A DNA stretch of 33,699 nucleotides. Source: Bacilli bacterium. Its GTDB lineage: Bacteria; Bacillota_I; Bacilli_A; RFN20; CAG-826. The translations under genes and the position numbers were made by a program. The notes under the pieces were generated by a model. That model made no database searches. It saw only the letters and a list, made by a program, of their open reading frames with translations, and was not told where the DNA came from. Within the stretch, counting starts at the first letter, position 1. Each line of letters opens with the position of its first letter. Where the stretch lies: contig JAFVCC010000077.1 in the NCBI GenBank assembly GCA_017479485.1, positions 1 through 33,699 on the forward strand, in the 5' to 3' direction. Below, in pieces: positions 3,854 through 16,774 of the stretch.

Positions 3854-3899
3854 TAAAAAAAGCGGACTTTTGCGATGATTTCCAGGTTAAGTCCGCTTT
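3854..3899 (-). terminator. Rho-independent terminator of the STAS-kinase gene
   Basis: On the minus strand AAAGCGGACTT pairs with AAGTCCGCTTT (3889-3899 with 3859-3869), followed by a run of seven T residues. The plus strand could also form the hairpin. Confidence 0.85.
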
Positions 3900-3914: not shown

Positions 3915-5069
3915 TTAGAGACCGATATCGAGGTCGTCAATGATATCGAGCAGGTGGTTTAGACGTCCGAGGTTACCTTCGTGACGCGCTTTGTTCTCGG
4001 GGTCGTTAACTTTGCTCCACCAAAGCATGTGGGCGTAGCTGACCAGCGCGATCTTTTGGAACGTCTGCTCGTTTAAGCCACCCAAATAGACGTCGAGCAA
4101 CTTGCGGAACATCGGTTGGACGAAGGAGGCGGGGAGGCCAAGGAAGCGCTCGCTGTTGCCCGGGTCATCTTCTTCGAAAGCGACATAGGGGGCGTAAATG
4201 GCGGCGAGCTCAAAGATGGGATGGCCATAGGACAGAGTGTCCATATCAATCAATAAGAGGTCATCGTTTTGGACCATGATGTTCTTGAAGTGACAGTCGC
4301 CGTGGACGAAGGTATTGCGGTCTTCGATGCTTTCGATGAGGCGGCGAAGCTTCGCGAATTTCTCCTCGCTTAAGAATTCTTTAATGCCGTCGACCTTGCG
4401 GAGCCATTCTGCCTTTGTGCTTGGCAAGGTGGAATCACTCGGAGTGGTGGTATTGATCGTGCGAAGCAGCGTCGCATATTTGTTGATCATTTCGTCGTAA
4501 CGGTCCGGTTCGTCGCGGAAGATGTCGCGCAAGGAAGCGCAATCGAGCATCTCAAAACGCACGCCGAAACGGTTGCCCACGGTGACGACGTCGAAGGAGA
4601 TTGCGGTGGGAATGCCCAAGACGAAAGCTTGCTTGGCGAGGTTTAGCTCGCGGCGGACATCCTCGATGGTCGTGCGCTGACGGAAGACTTTGATGATGGT
4701 GTCTTTATCGATGCGGTATACCTCGGAAAAATAGCCTTGGCCGATGAGGACCGCTCCGCTGACGTCGATCTCCACCAAACGCTTCTCAACCGTCATCATG
4801 CGGGTGAAACCGGTCATTTCGAAAACTTCATAAACATCCGGGGAAGCGTTGATCACGCTGGTGTCTTTGCAGCGCTGCAGAAGTTTTAATACCACGCGCA
4901 ATCCTGCCGAAGACACGTAATGCACGCCACTGAAGTCGAGAACGACTTTTGTTGGCGATGCGCTAGAAAAAACTTGGAATACCTCAGCTTCAATCTGCGC
5001 CGCATTCGACGAAGAAATGTCGCCCGTAGGATAAAAGGTAAGGGTGCCGTTTTCAAAATGATGGTTCAT
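3915..5069 (-). CDS. STAS domain (anti-sigma antagonist type) fused to an APH/choline-kinase-like phosphotransferase
   Basis: This 384-residue protein has two parts. Residues 1-100 form a STAS domain like SpoIIAA/RsbV, with VVLDFSGVHYVSSAGLRVVL at about 42-61; Ser53/Ser54 is where such antagonists are phosphorylated. Residues 105-384 look like a protein-kinase-like small-molecule kinase: glycine loop VLIGQGYFSEVY (107-118), candidate Lys127, catalytic HGDCHFKN (256-263) and metal-binding IDMD (274-277). That half recalls the TIGR02172/aminoglycoside phosphotransferase group. GGAG lies 8 nt before the ATG and TAAAAT further up. The gene is divergent from asnA. A matching SpoIIE-phosphatase/HATPase protein is encoded at 14906-16774, so a partner-switch input is plausible. 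The substrate is unknown; drug resistance should not be assumed. Confidence 0.85.
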   Translation of the reverse strand: MNHHFENGTLTFYPTGDISSSNAAQIEAEVFQVFSSASPTKVVLDFSGVHYVSSAGLRVVLKLLQRCKDTSVINASPDVYEVFEMTGFTRMMTVEKRLVEIDVSGAVLIGQGYFSEVYRIDKDTIIKVFRQRTTIEDVRRELNLAKQAFVLGIPTAISFDVVTVGNRFGVRFEMLDCASLRDIFRDEPDRYDEMINKYATLLRTINTTTPSDSTLPSTKAEWLRKVDGIKEFLSEEKFAKLRRLIESIEDRNTFVHGDCHFKNIMVQNDDLLLIDMDTLSYGHPIFELAAIYAPYVAFEEDDPGNSERFLGLPASFVQPMFRKLLDVYLGGLNEQTFQKIALVSYAHMLWWSKVNDPENKARHEGNLGRLNHLLDIIDDLDIGL

Positions 5070-11672: not shown

Positions 11673-11690
11673 CACCTGTTTTTCTTCGTG

Positions 11691-11699
11691 TGCTATCAT
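11691..11699 (+). promoter_or_regulatory. Extended -10 of the response regulator-EAL gene, predicted leaderless
   Basis: TGC TATCAT ends 6 nt before ATG 11706. Transcription should begin at or next to the A of the ATG. There is no Shine-Dalgarno. Confidence 0.6.
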
Positions 11700-11705
11700 A
11701 GCCAC

Positions 11706-13400
11706 ATGGCAGAGCGATTTCCGAGAAGTTTTTCCGCGCGACGGAAAATCCTGATTGTTGATGACGAACTCATCAACTGCGAGATCCTTTCGGCGATTTT
11801 AGAAAATGACTACGACATTTCCTTCGCCCATAACGGCAAGGATGCTTTGGAATTGCTCACTTCCACCGATTCCGAGTTTTCGCTCATCATGCTCGATTTG
11901 ATGATGCCGGTGATGGATGGCGATGCGTTCTTAGAACAAAAGAAACTCATTCCCTCGCTTCGCGATATTCCCGTTATCGTCCTTACCTCGGAGACGAAAA
12001 AAGAAGTGGAGAGCCTGCGTCATGGCGCGACCGACTTCATCAAAAAGCCCTATGAATCGCCGGAGATTATCCAAGCCCGCGTCGAGCGCATCATCGAAAA
12101 TTACGAATCTACCCGTACCATTCGCGATACCAGCGCGGATTTAGCCACGGGCCTATACACCAAAGAATACTTCGATCACTTCGCCAAAGAGATTCTGAAA
12201 AACCATCCCCAAGGTGACTTTGACATGGTCGTGATTTATTTGACCAATTTCACGATCGCCGAAGAACTCGCGGGACCTATCGCCATGTCCAAAGCGTTAC
12301 ACGAAGTCGGCGAATATCTTCGCGATGAGGCAAGGAAATTTGGTGGCATTACGACGCGAAGCAGCCAAGAGGCTTTCCTCTTTTTGGGGGAACATCGTGA
12401 ATCCTATGATGAATTCTTCCACGGCTTAGTCGATATGCTGACGGCGGAATTTGGCGCCTCGCGCCTTCGCATGAAACTCGGCATTTACCCCCATATCGAT
12501 ATGAATTCGAAACTTCCGGAAATGTGCGCGAGGGCTTTCGATGCGTTTGAAGCCATCCGAAACGATTCGGTGGCGAAAGTGAATTACTATGACGCGAAGC
12601 TTCATGAGGCGAACGTCCTGCACGAACGCCTTCTCCAGTGCTTTGAGAATTCGCTTCAGAATCAGGAATTCAAAGTATTCTTCCAACCAAAATATAGCAT
12701 CGAAGGAGACGAGCCTCGCCTTGCGGGAGCGGAAGCGCTCGTGCGCTGGGCACACCCTGAATTCGGCATGATCAGCCCCGGCGTCTTCATTCCTCTGTTT
12801 GAGAAATACGGCTATATCCGTAGCTTGGACCGTTTCGTATATGAGAAGACGGCAGAGATGATTTCTCGCCTAAAAAAGGAGCTTGGCGTCGAACTGCCGA
12901 TTTCATGCAACGTCTCACGCGTCGATATCTTTGACCCCAATCTCTGCGACGTGATCTGCTCCTTAGTGCAAAAATATGGTTTCGAACCGAAATTGCTTCA
13001 CCTCGAAGTTACCGAAACCGTCTACTCGGAGAACACGATAGAACTCATCGCGAAGACCGCGCATCTAAGGGAGATGGGGTTCGAAATCGAAATGGACGAC
13101 TTTGGCTCGGGATATTCTTCTCTCAACATGCTAAGCAGTCTCCCCTTCGATGTCTTAAAGATCGATACGGGGTTCGTCCGTAACATGTTTGAGTCCGACA
13201 AAAACCTCCGCATCCTCCATTCCATCATCGACCTTGCGAAATTCTTGGAAGTCCGCACCGTTGCGGAAGGGGTGGAAAACAAAGAACAGCTCGATAAATT
13301 AAAAGAATTCGGCTGCGATTTAATCCAAGGCTACTATTTCTCTAAACCGCTGCCCGAAGAGGATTTCTTCGCCCGGGTGAAAGGAGAACTTGTCTCATGA
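11706..13400 (+). CDS. Response regulator with degenerate GGDEF and intact EAL domain (c-di-GMP phosphodiesterase)
   Basis: This 564-residue cytoplasmic protein has a receiver domain (about 13-128) with the acidic pair DD (19-20), phospho-acceptor Asp64 in LIMLDLMMP and the Lys of FIKKPYE. A GGDEF-like middle (about 145-290) reads SQEAF where GGDEF should be, so it should not make c-di-GMP. The EAL domain (about 300-560) keeps EALVRW, CNVSR, LEVTET, MDDFGSGYSSL, LKIDTGFV, VAEGVEN and IQGYYFS, so hydrolysis of c-di-GMP is expected. I set the start at ATG 11706 because the GTG at 11688 would translate through the extended -10. Its end overlaps the Hpt gene (ATGA), which indicates coupling in a phosphorelay. 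Confidence 0.93.
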   Translation: MAERFPRSFSARRKILIVDDELINCEILSAILENDYDISFAHNGKDALELLTSTDSEFSLIMLDLMMPVMDGDAFLEQKKLIPSLRDIPVIVLTSETKKEVESLRHGATDFIKKPYESPEIIQARVERIIENYESTRTIRDTSADLATGLYTKEYFDHFAKEILKNHPQGDFDMVVIYLTNFTIAEELAGPIAMSKALHEVGEYLRDEARKFGGITTRSSQEAFLFLGEHRESYDEFFHGLVDMLTAEFGASRLRMKLGIYPHIDMNSKLPEMCARAFDAFEAIRNDSVAKVNYYDAKLHEANVLHERLLQCFENSLQNQEFKVFFQPKYSIEGDEPRLAGAEALVRWAHPEFGMISPGVFIPLFEKYGYIRSLDRFVYEKTAEMISRLKKELGVELPISCNVSRVDIFDPNLCDVICSLVQKYGFEPKLLHLEVTETVYSENTIELIAKTAHLREMGFEIEMDDFGSGYSSLNMLSSLPFDVLKIDTGFVRNMFESDKNLRILHSIIDLAKFLEVRTVAEGVENKEQLDKLKEFGCDLIQGYYFSKPLPEEDFFARVKGELVS

Positions 13401-13759
13401 CGACACAAGAACTCTACGCCAAATTCGGCGCGAATTACGAAGAGGCGAAAGGGCGCATGATGAATGATGTCCTCATCAATCGCTTCTTGCTGAAATTTGC
13501 CCAAACCTATTCCCTAGACGCCTTATTGGCGGCTCAGGAGAAACGCGACGGACACGCCCTATTCGAAGCCGCCCATAGCCTTAAAGGGGTTTGCGGCAAC
13601 TTGGCATTGACCAAGCTTTACGTCCTTGCCTCGGACTTGGCCGAAAAGACGCGCAACCTTGCGGAGGGCGCCGCGTTTGATGCTTCCTCCGAAGTTGCCT
13701 TGATTAAGAACGAATATGAGGCGACGGTTTCCGCGATTCGGGAGTGCCTCGGGCAATAA
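13397..13759 (+). CDS. Hpt (histidine phosphotransfer) domain protein
   Basis: This 120-residue helical protein has the Hpt motif LFEAAHSLKGVCGNLALTKL, with the phosphorylatable His in AHSLKG near residue 60 (family pattern HxLKGxxxxxG). It consists of one helical-bundle domain with nothing else attached. ATG 13397 overlaps the stop of the EAL gene in an ATGA arrangement, so the two are translated together. The natural reading is that Hpt passes a phosphate to or from the receiver domain of the EAL protein. No hybrid histidine kinase is in the window, so the donor must be encoded elsewhere, or the Hpt drains phosphate from the receiver. Confidence 0.92.
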   Translation: MTTQELYAKFGANYEEAKGRMMNDVLINRFLLKFAQTYSLDALLAAQEKRDGHALFEAAHSLKGVCGNLALTKLYVLASDLAEKTRNLAEGAAFDASSEVALIKNEYEATVSAIRECLGQ

Positions 13760-13771
13760 GGAGTCTCAACA

Positions 13772-14875
13772 ATGTCCCTTTCTAGCAGGTTTCCACGGTT
13801 TGCAGCCTTCAAAGATTTCTTGATGAAGACGACCAATGGCATGGCCATCGGTCTTTTTGGTACCTTAATCATCGGCACCATCATCGATCTCTTCGCGAAG
13901 ATTCCCGGCGGCGAATTCATCGCCGTGTGGAGTAGCGCGATCAAAGCGTTGATGGGCGCAGGCATTGGTCTTGGCGTCGCATTATCGTTAAAGAAAAGCG
14001 GCGTCATGGTCGTGGCCATCATGGCTGCGGGTATGGTAGGGAATTACGCGTTCCACTGGATCCCCAATGAAGAACTCCAATACGTGCAGTGGTCCGTAAG
14101 CTCTATCGGTGACCCATTAAGCTGCTATCTTGGCGCGGTGGTCGCTGCATTAGGCATCGACCTCATCATGAAAAAGAAGACCCCCGTCGATTTGATTTTG
14201 ATACCTTTGGTCGGTTTAGTGCTCGCGATTATCTATTCGCTTCTACTTGCGGAGTGGGTCCATTTCATCACCATCGGAATCGGCAAGCTTATCGAGATCT
14301 CCTTCAGCGTCATTCCTTTCCTCATGTGCATCATTATCTCGGTGCTTATGGGCATGGCTCTTACCGCCCCAATCTCCTCGGTAGCGATTGCGGTTGCGGT
14401 CCAAATCGGCGGCGTGCCCTTAGCAGCCGCAAGCGCCCTGATTGGCTGCTGCACCCAGATGCTTGGCTTTGCCGTCCATACCGCTAGAGACAATAGCTGG
14501 GGTTCGGTTCTTGCCGTGGGCATCGGTACGTCGATGCTCCAGTTTAAGAACATCCTTCGCAAACCTTTGATTTGGCTTCCGACCATCGTGATTTCGGCGT
14601 TACTTGGTCCTTTCGCGATGCTGTTCCCTCTCTCTGGCATTGACGTGGCCGCCAGTAAGAGCGCGCTATCTGTGGGCGCGGGCATGGGGACGTCCGGATT
14701 AGTTGGACCCATCAATTTCCTGTCCTCGATCGGATTTGATAATCCACTTCTTTGGGTACTCATTTTAAGCGTCTGCATTGCCGCCCCAATCGTGCTGACG
14801 TTCCTTGCCGATTTGGCATTGCGTAAAGCTGGGGTGCTTCGTGAAGGAGACTTCTCCTTAAAGTCCGACATTTAA
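13772..14875 (+). CDS. PTS EIIC-like membrane protein (PTS_EIIC_2 family)
   Basis: This 367-residue protein is very hydrophobic, with about 9-10 helices. The N-terminal KTTNGMAIGLFGTLIIGTII and the Gly/Ala-rich helices with GAGIGLGVALSLKKSGV, GDPLSCYLGAVVAALGIDL and the late GMGTSGLVGPINF loop match the stand-alone EIIC family PF13303. These proteins usually occur without EIIA or EIIB partners, as here. AAGGAG lies about 8 nt before ATG 13772, 12 nt after the Hpt stop, so the gene belongs to the same operon. The place between Hpt and SpoIIE genes suggests a sensory or regulatory transport role rather than simple sugar uptake; this is inference. The substrate is unknown. Confidence 0.83.
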   Translation: MSLSSRFPRFAAFKDFLMKTTNGMAIGLFGTLIIGTIIDLFAKIPGGEFIAVWSSAIKALMGAGIGLGVALSLKKSGVMVVAIMAAGMVGNYAFHWIPNEELQYVQWSVSSIGDPLSCYLGAVVAALGIDLIMKKKTPVDLILIPLVGLVLAIIYSLLLAEWVHFITIGIGKLIEISFSVIPFLMCIIISVLMGMALTAPISSVAIAVAVQIGGVPLAAASALIGCCTQMLGFAVHTARDNSWGSVLAVGIGTSMLQFKNILRKPLIWLPTIVISALLGPFAMLFPLSGIDVAASKSALSVGAGMGTSGLVGPINFLSSIGFDNPLLWVLILSVCIAAPIVLTFLADLALRKAGVLREGDFSLKSDI

Positions 14876-14905: not shown

Positions 14906-16774
14906 ATGAAAACTAGGTTTAAAAGCAAGGAGACGGAAGAGGCGTTCGCCAAGAATGAAATCGAAGCGAACCGCCAAATGTGCTACATCTGCGCGATGGG
15001 CGGTGGCGGCTTATTTGTCGCTTTGATTTTCTACATTTTCAAGCTCTTCCCCCTCCATAACTACATTCAGGTCTATATCACGTTGCCGATTCTGATCGTG
15101 CTCCTTGAGATACCGCTATTCCTACGCAAAACCAAATTGGTGGAGAAATCGGGCTTCAAATACGTCACGATCTATATGCTGCTATTCGTGATTGGCTTGC
15201 TCAACACGCTTCTCCCCAAGCATTTCGTCCTCGGTTACGCCTTCTTAATCGTTTTAACGAATCATTATTACAGCCCGAAATTTGGCCGAATCATCTTCTT
15301 TGCGTCCCTTGCGACGATGCTTGTCGCACTCTATATCGGCGCGCTAATTGGCGAATACGATCCCAACTTAATCACATCCGGCAAAGTCGTCTATGACGAA
15401 GACCTAGGTGAATTCGTCTTATACCAACCGGAGAGTCCTAGGGAGCGTTTCGTTTTCTTCTTGGAGCTGATTGAATCTGGGGGTAGCAACCGCTTTATCG
15501 CTATTGCGGTCTATTACTTCTTCGCTCGCGGTTTGTTGCTGACGATGGTCTTCCTCACTTCGAATTCGCTCAATAACCGCACCCAATCCTTGCTCCAGCG
15601 CGAAGCGGATTCCCAGCAAGAGCGCACCCGTATCGCGACCGAGTTATCCGTTGCGGAAGAAATCCAGCGCACTGTTTTGCCTAGCGCCACCTACCAGAGC
15701 CAAAAGGTCGAAATCTTAGCCCAGCTTAAGCCCGCGCGAGTCGTCGGTGGCGACTTCTATGACTACTGGTTCCCGGATGCGAACCACCTTGCTTTCCTTA
15801 TTGGCGACGTCTCTGGCAAAGGTATTCCCGCGGCCATGTTTATGATGAAGACCCTCACTTCGTTCCGCGCTTCTTATTCTTTAGGTCTCAAGCCGAGCGA
15901 AGTCATTCAAAAGGTGAACCGCCTCATTTATATGGGCAATGACGCCTCGATGTTCGTCACGTGCTTCTTCGGCGTTTTGGATATGACGAGCGGAATCATC
16001 GAATACGCGAATGGCGGCCATAACGCACCCTTGCTCTTCAAAGGTGGCAAATACGAGTATCTCAAGTGCAGCCATGGCGTCATCCTTGGCGGATTTGAAG
16101 ATTCCTTCTCTCGCGATGAATCCATCCAGCTCCAGAAAGGCGATGGCTTGTTGCTTTATACCGATGGCGTTACGGAAGCGAAAAGTCTTACCGACGAACT
16201 ATATGGCGAGCAGCGCTTGCTTTCGTTCGTGAATCAATGCCCGCACGAAACCTTGATCGAATTCGGCCGCGAGCTCGAAGACAATATCGCAGAATTCACC
16301 ACCGGTGCAGAGCAGTCTGACGATATCACTTACCTGCTTTTTGTTTATGATGGCGATGTGACGTATTTCCGCGAAGCGCAGTTTAGTCCCTTCATCGAAT
16401 CGGTGGAAAGCATCCGTAACTTCATCATCGAAGGAGCGGAACAAGCGGAAATCCAAGGCGAAAACCGCTCCGTCTTCCTCGTTGCCGCGGAGGAAATCTT
16501 TTGCAATATGGTCAAGCATGGCGACTTGCCACCCGATAGTTCGGTTCTTGTTCGCTGCTGCTATAAGCCGAATAAGGATCTTGTTACGGTGACACTGGTT
16601 GACCGGGGCGAGCCCTTCGATCCTACGGCCTATGAAGATAATTCTTCTTCGGAATATGGAAATAACGACGGCGCGATTGGATGGAAGCTTGCGAAGTCGT
16701 TGATGGATGAAGTCGTCTATCACCGCACCAACGGCAAGAACGTCGTTTCGTTATCGAAGAAGATAAAACGATAA
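14906..16774 (+). CDS. Membrane SpoIIE/PP2C phosphatase fused to an RsbW-like HATPase (serine kinase) domain
   Basis: This 622-residue protein has about six hydrophobic helices in residues 25-225 with an extracytoplasmic acidic loop (about 150-190), then a coiled linker (LLQREADSQQERTRIATELSV region). The SpoIIE/RsbU phosphatase domain (about 245-480) carries EIQRTVLPS, VVGGDFYDYW, GDVSGKGIPAAMF, LLLYTDGVTEA and SDDITYL, which are the metal-binding aspartates of PP2C. The C-terminal GHKL domain (about 490-620) has an N-box AAEEIFCNMVKHG, G1-like VDRGEPFDP and a G2 region GAIGWKLAKSLMDEV. Both arms of a partner switch are thus in one chain: dephosphorylation and phosphorylation of a STAS antagonist. 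It lies 30 nt after the EIIC-like gene, without a clear Shine-Dalgarno. No sigma factor gene is nearby; the obvious STAS candidate is the fusion at 3915-5069. Confidence 0.93.
   Translation: MKTRFKSKETEEAFAKNEIEANRQMCYICAMGGGGLFVALIFYIFKLFPLHNYIQVYITLPILIVLLEIPLFLRKTKLVEKSGFKYVTIYMLLFVIGLLNTLLPKHFVLGYAFLIVLTNHYYSPKFGRIIFFASLATMLVALYIGALIGEYDPNLITSGKVVYDEDLGEFVLYQPESPRERFVFFLELIESGGSNRFIAIAVYYFFARGLLLTMVFLTSNSLNNRTQSLLQREADSQQERTRIATELSVAEEIQRTVLPSATYQSQKVEILAQLKPARVVGGDFYDYWFPDANHLAFLIGDVSGKGIPAAMFMMKTLTSFRASYSLGLKPSEVIQKVNRLIYMGNDASMFVTCFFGVLDMTSGIIEYANGGHNAPLLFKGGKYEYLKCSHGVILGGFEDSFSRDESIQLQKGDGLLLYTDGVTEAKSLTDELYGEQRLLSFVNQCPHETLIEFGRELEDNIAEFTTGAEQSDDITYLLFVYDGDVTYFREAQFSPFIESVESIRNFIIEGAEQAEIQGENRSVFLVAAEEIFCNMVKHGDLPPDSSVLVRCCYKPNKDLVTVTLVDRGEPFDPTAYEDNSSSEYGNNDGAIGWKLAKSLMDEVVYHRTNGKNVVSLSKKIKR

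Follow-up and report, generated by a model that had tools for sequence, protein, structure and literature searches.

The gene at 3915–5069 on the minus strand of the window (the whole 33,699 nt stretch of DNA analysed here) encodes a 384 aa protein in which a STAS domain of the SpoIIAA/RsbV antagonist type is joined to a kinase of the APH/choline-kinase fold. Judged from domain content, gene neighbourhoods and residue conservation, this STAS-kinase is fairly likely to serve as the output of a partner-switching module that targets an enzyme. Partner switching is best known for freeing sigma factors. In the scheme proposed here, a membrane protein encoded at 14906–16774 would sense a signal, its RsbW/SpoIIAB-type HATPase domain would bind the STAS half and phosphorylate Ser54, and its SpoIIE phosphatase domain would take the phosphate off again. 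The phosphorylation or binding state of the STAS domain would then set the activity or substrate access of the attached kinase, in either direction, and the kinase would in turn phosphorylate a small molecule. Because the state of the STAS domain would set the attached kinase directly, no sigma factor would be needed.

The open reading frame has an ATG start, and both the domain fusion and the three motifs that a sequence-only reading had assigned to it are borne out by domain matches and a structural model. The STAS domain (residues 6–98; 4776–5054, minus strand) matches PF01740 with an E-value of 2.8e-15 (56.4 bits, cut-off 22.6), and the kinase domain (residues 101–382; 3924–4769, minus strand) matches PF01636 over residues 109–294 with an E-value of 1.6e-14 (54.7 bits, cut-off 23.2). 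The SSAGL motif occupies residues 53–57, whereas the catalytic HGDCHFKN (residues 256–263; 4281–4304) and the metal-binding IDMD (residues 274–277; 4239–4250) lie within a single segment at 4239–4304 of the minus strand. Scores for narrower families stay below their cut-offs. The best full-domain NCBIfam match of the kinase half is TIGR02172, at 108.7 bits over residues 101–293 (cut-off 228.2), and the STAS half scores 53.3 bits against TIGR00377 (anti-sigma factor antagonist), 0.15 short of the cut-off of 53.45, and 36.5 bits against the SpoIIAA equivalog TIGR02886 (cut-off 114.75). By its PF01636 score, catalytic residues and fold, the kinase half belongs to the APH phosphotransferases. The same genome has a paralogue with 41 % identity on a different contig, and 16 of the 25 genomes of the genus contain full-length homologues of identical architecture (35–65 % identity), which rules out a frame or assembly artefact; the fusion is a real two-domain protein. 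A likely terminator lies at 3860–3898 (no strand assigned), between an MFS gene and the STAS-kinase gene, and was recognized by direct reading of the sequence as a 10 bp perfect inverted repeat, AAGCGGACTT...AAGTCCGCTT, flanked by A/T runs. It is absent from the terminator-scan output, its 19-base loop exceeding the length permitted by the scanner.

The AlphaFold2 model of the 384 aa protein, built with 67 homologues as input, is confident throughout (mean pLDDT 94.6, pTM 0.83). In VIA-align comparisons, residues 1–97 superimpose on SpoIIAA from its complex with SpoIIAB (1th8_B; Z 15.9, rmsd 1.4, 97 residues aligned), and residues 97–383 on a member of the choline/ethanolamine kinase family (3dxq_A; Z 17.3, rmsd 4.3, 250 residues aligned), with LicA (4r77, Z 15.9) and several aminoglycoside phosphotransferases slightly below the latter. 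Designed Pizza repeat proteins, with low per-repeat scores, appeared among the first phmmer matches of the STAS domain in the PDB. A structural search of viral proteins returned kinase-fold matches only, with no name pointing to a STAS-kinase architecture.

Ser54 (codon 4908–4910, minus strand), the predicted phosphorylation site, corresponds in a profile alignment to the solved SpoIIAA structures (1auz/1th8) to the first serine of DSSGL, Ser58 of Bacillus subtilis SpoIIAA, which has been named as the site of phosphorylation (PMC11418112). A serine is present at this position in 88 of 90 distinct homologues of a first set and in 121 of 123 alignable homologues of a larger one, a reference set in which one rumen genus predominates, so that the homologues are not independent. 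The sole two replacements are in L054 and L055, whose proteins have a SpoT-like HD domain at the N terminus and a degenerate STAS domain, and there a separate STAS gene is present in the cluster. Free STAS proteins retain the serine without exception (32/32). Loss of the serine from most homologues of the STAS half, named beforehand as contrary to the proposal, is thus not seen. The kinase residues K127, E141, H256, D258, H260, N263, I274 and D275 are likewise invariant, in 90/90 homologues. Among the neighbouring SpoIIE-HATPase proteins, the asparagine box of the HATPase is preserved (E530 and N534 in 64/64, D566 in 62/64), and the phosphatase motif residues, including the metal-site aspartates, are conserved in the homologues at or just under 100 %.

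Genetic linkage joins the STAS-kinases to both arms of such a switch. A SpoIIE gene, in most cases one with a HATPase at its end, lies directly downstream on the same strand of 50 of the 118 distinct STAS-kinase genes, compared with 8 of 930 control genes (other genes at the same loci); 44 of these 50 overlap the STAS-kinase gene or start within 3 bp of it. A further 6 of the 118 have SpoIIE directly upstream, and SpoIIE or a HATPase is found within three genes of the STAS-kinase in 73. About half of the homologues have no immediately adjacent SpoIIE gene, and about twenty loci carry a free STAS gene beside the fusion. Counted over whole genomes of the genus, a SpoIIE gene lies no more than 2.5 kb from 10 of 23 fusions, against an expectation of 0.27, and a strong SpoIIE match is present in 15 of the 16 genomes that have the fusion and in 2 of the 9 that lack it (Fisher p 0.0005, uncorrected for shared ancestry). 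One 87 %-complete metagenome-assembled genome (G021) has two fusions and no SpoIIE or HATPase match. Distances among the kinases and among their neighbouring PP2C phosphatases are strongly correlated (Mantel r=0.91, 47 pairs), a pattern that vertical inheritance could also produce. The co-occurrence across genomes on which the proposal had been made to depend is therefore evident both in next-gene counts and genus-wide. Together with the conservation of the serine, this linkage supports the original suggestion that partner switching controls an enzyme instead of a sigma factor, by which the activity of the kinase would be altered.

Other genes recur around these loci. In a paralogue block of the C63 type, which consists of a conserved gene run, a DUF5677 protein gene is immediately upstream of the STAS-kinase; seven such blocks (L043, L044, L045, L046, L121, L122, L129) have no adjoining SpoIIE-HATPase gene. 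An ABC pair of the NHLM-type bacteriocin exporter kind (TIGR03796-like and TIGR03797-like, slightly below cut-off) is found directly upstream of STAS, STAS-kinase or SpoIIE-HATPase genes at twelve loci (L062, L064, L068, L070, L075, L078, L085, L090, L092, L101, L115, L120), frequently accompanied by genes for a radical SAM protein and a 130 aa protein; in L064 the exporter is downstream.

Within the window itself, the gene at 14906–16774 (plus strand) encodes a 622 aa protein with the phosphatase/kinase make-up claimed for it: transmembrane segments, a SpoIIE/PP2C phosphatase domain (15779–16342, plus strand; PF07228, 4.9e-50) and an RsbW/SpoIIAB-type HATPase_c_2 domain (16397–16759, plus strand; PF13581, 1.6e-15). 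About 10 kb separate this gene from that of the STAS-kinase, which lies on the opposite strand, and the pair does not form one operon, an arrangement also seen at locus L033 of another genome of the genus (G018). The guess that this protein is the partner of the STAS-kinase is nonetheless supported by phylogeny. A tree of 66 SpoIIE-HATPase proteins places the one from the window, together with its orthologue at L033, in a 44-row clade (support 100/99). The remaining 42 rows of this clade are, without exception, immediate neighbours of STAS-kinases, whereas the second SpoIIE-HATPase of the window's genome (on C61, beside a free STAS gene) falls outside it. From its place in this clade, the protein is likely to be the predicted cognate phosphatase and kinase of the STAS-kinase, secondarily separated from it. 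Beside the SpoIIE-HATPase gene, at 11688–14875, are genes for a response regulator-EAL protein with a weak GGDEF domain, an Hpt protein and a PTS_EIIC_2 protein; proteins of the response regulator-EAL and Hpt families are again encoded close to the module at L033, L086 and L088.

Natural fusions place all three components of the proposed interaction in one chain, and in both orders: HATPase-STAS-kinase (L052) and STAS-kinase-HATPase (L184, L188, L189). Searched by itself with phmmer, the HATPase domain of the window protein matches nothing in the PDB at 0.01, and its assignment is based on its Pfam match together with the fold of such a fused domain in a homologue. The model of the L188 protein is confident (pLDDT 95.1, pTM 0.87), and its C-terminal HATPase domain matches RsbW of the RsbV/RsbW complex (6m37; Z 17.0, rmsd 1.9) and SpoIIAB (Z 16.8).

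It is very unlikely that the STAS half is an ordinary anti-anti-sigma factor, freeing a sigma factor from the HATPase, with the kinase as a passenger serving stability, localisation or some unrelated activity. The STAS and HATPase domains are of the SpoIIAA/SpoIIAB type, as this would require, and some genomes of the genus have a second sigma-70-like ORF of ~300–370 aa beside rpoD, which may be the target of the HATPase in some of them. However, these second ORFs are found in most genomes without the fusion and in few with it. TIGR02980 (SigB/F/G) has no match over its cut-off in 25 genomes of the genus, the best matches there being RpoD-sized ORFs and, in some genomes, the second ORF; other, sporulating families of the same order give SigF/G-like TIGR02980 matches of 200–250 bits, four of them above cut-off. 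No cognate SigB/F/G was found in the window's own genome either, and because that genome is only 61.65 % complete, the absence rests on its relatives. Additionally, invariant catalytic residues would be needless in a passenger, and the direct fusion of the kinase to the HATPase also speaks against one. A chance or inert fusion, the remnant of a decayed signalling gene, is virtually inconceivable, being refuted by the conservation of the same architecture in more than 100 homologues with invariant active sites.

The substrate might also be of another kind. CcrZ, CotS-type and LicA choline kinases act on a protein or on a lipid or cell-wall precursor, and the kinase half could do the same, with the STAS domain mainly docking it on a membrane complex. 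Consistent with this are weak matches to CotS, CcrZ and Bud32 in NCBIfam, the presence of LicA among the best fold matches and the membrane location of the window partner. However, the three family matches are all below cut-off, a common fold names no substrate, and a conserved cell-wall neighbour gene was looked for and none was found, which leaves this role decidedly unlikely.

A nucleotide substrate is a sub-case of the enzyme-output explanation, one that names a substrate class, and is hinted at by the fusions and neighbours of the kinase in some relatives. Five proteins (L054, L055, L202, L186, L187) combine the kinase in one chain with an HD_4 domain, of the SpoT-like small alarmone hydrolase type, and an HD_4 gene is directly upstream of the STAS-kinase at five more loci (L125, L128, L135, L137, L138), mostly in Clostridia. 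The HD and D..N catalytic motifs of these domains are largely intact. A RelA_SpoT synthetase gene is present in the same cluster at two loci (L054:64-3180 and L055:12318-17278), in the order STAS, RelA_SpoT synthetase, then HD_4/degenerate STAS/TIGR02172 kinase, with SpoIIE-HATPase next in L055; by its predicted gene content this cluster is a partner-switch module with alarmone enzymes. A bacterial small alarmone hydrolase acts on alarmones and on NADPH (PMC9765508). These arrangements raise the possibility, an unlikely one, that a nucleotide messenger is produced or altered by the kinase and removed by SpoT-like HD hydrolases, with the STAS switch setting the balance. The upstream-neighbour test is small (5/118, background 2/930), and in the window's genus a hydrolase besides the housekeeping RSH is clear in two genomes only (G011 and G018), so that most STAS-kinases work without an HD hydrolase and, given this rarity, the hydrolase cannot be a required part. 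A sigma-independent, partner-switched second messenger, in which the kinase would write and the HD domain erase a phosphorylated nucleotide signal under the balance of STAS, SpoIIE and HATPase, is distinctly improbable. Two of the HD_4-kinase fusions have no STAS domain (L186:5582-7060, L187:5976-7472), and at L217:582-2951 an AMP-binding enzyme and an APH-type kinase are joined in a single protein of 789 aa.

Viral, plasmid and defence-gene collections yielded little. Eight pattern matches in viral contigs are unrelated to the STAS-kinase, and plasmids gave two partial, weak matches only, with no sign of plasmid spread. Neither the fusion nor its partner matches the anti-phage defence library, in which the RelA_SpoT neighbour in L055 has a weak PDC-S33 match. 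Ternary-complex conflict systems (TCAD9, PMC7159879) were considered on account of a weak TCAD9 match (16.5 against 40 bits) and then dropped.

With the STAS-kinase as the predicted output of the switch, gut and rumen bacteria without the usual sigma targets carry a complete phosphatase, HATPase kinase and STAS switch on a kinase of metabolic type, frequently as several copies in one genome, and gut bacteria probably control an enzyme with a switch that is classic in gene regulation. The covalent link between STAS domain and kinase offers a direct test of the control of a STAS phospho-switch over catalysis, and the STAS-kinase-HATPase and HD-kinase fusions provide one-chain constructs and a lead to the substrate.

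Similarities to known systems are found for each part of the module. Like SpoIIE/SpoIIAB/SpoIIAA and RsbU/RsbW/RsbV of Bacillus, it has a STAS domain with the aligned serine, a HATPase of the RsbW/SpoIIAB fold and a SpoIIE-type phosphatase; unlike them, its STAS domain is fused to a kinase, its phosphatase and HATPase form one membrane protein, and its genus has no SigB/F/G. The kinase half resembles the TIGR02172 family at a score below the family's cut-off, and shares its fold (Z 15–17) and catalytic motif with the LicA choline kinase and the APH aminoglycoside kinases, whereas its identity to these is only ~8–17 %, and the resemblance names no substrate. Small alarmone hydrolases (HD_4, SpoT/Mesh1 type) are fused to or beside kinases of this type in some relatives, but not in the window protein or in most of the genus. 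No description of a STAS-APH fusion or of TIGR02172 was found in the open-licence papers searched. The closest parallel in output is SiaABCD of Pseudomonas aeruginosa, composed of the PP2C phosphatase SiaA, the kinase SiaB, the STAS-like SiaC and the diguanylate cyclase SiaD, with an enzyme as output (PMC8457831, PMC9239204). Both combine a phosphatase, a kinase and a STAS-type protein in a switch with an enzyme output, a predicted one in the case of the STAS-kinase. In SiaABCD, however, SiaC binds SiaD as a protein of its own, whereas here the STAS domain is covalently joined to its predicted target, an APH-fold kinase and not a diguanylate cyclase, and the HATPase shares a chain either with the phosphatase or with that target. 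An enzyme as the output of a partner switch is already known from SiaABCD.
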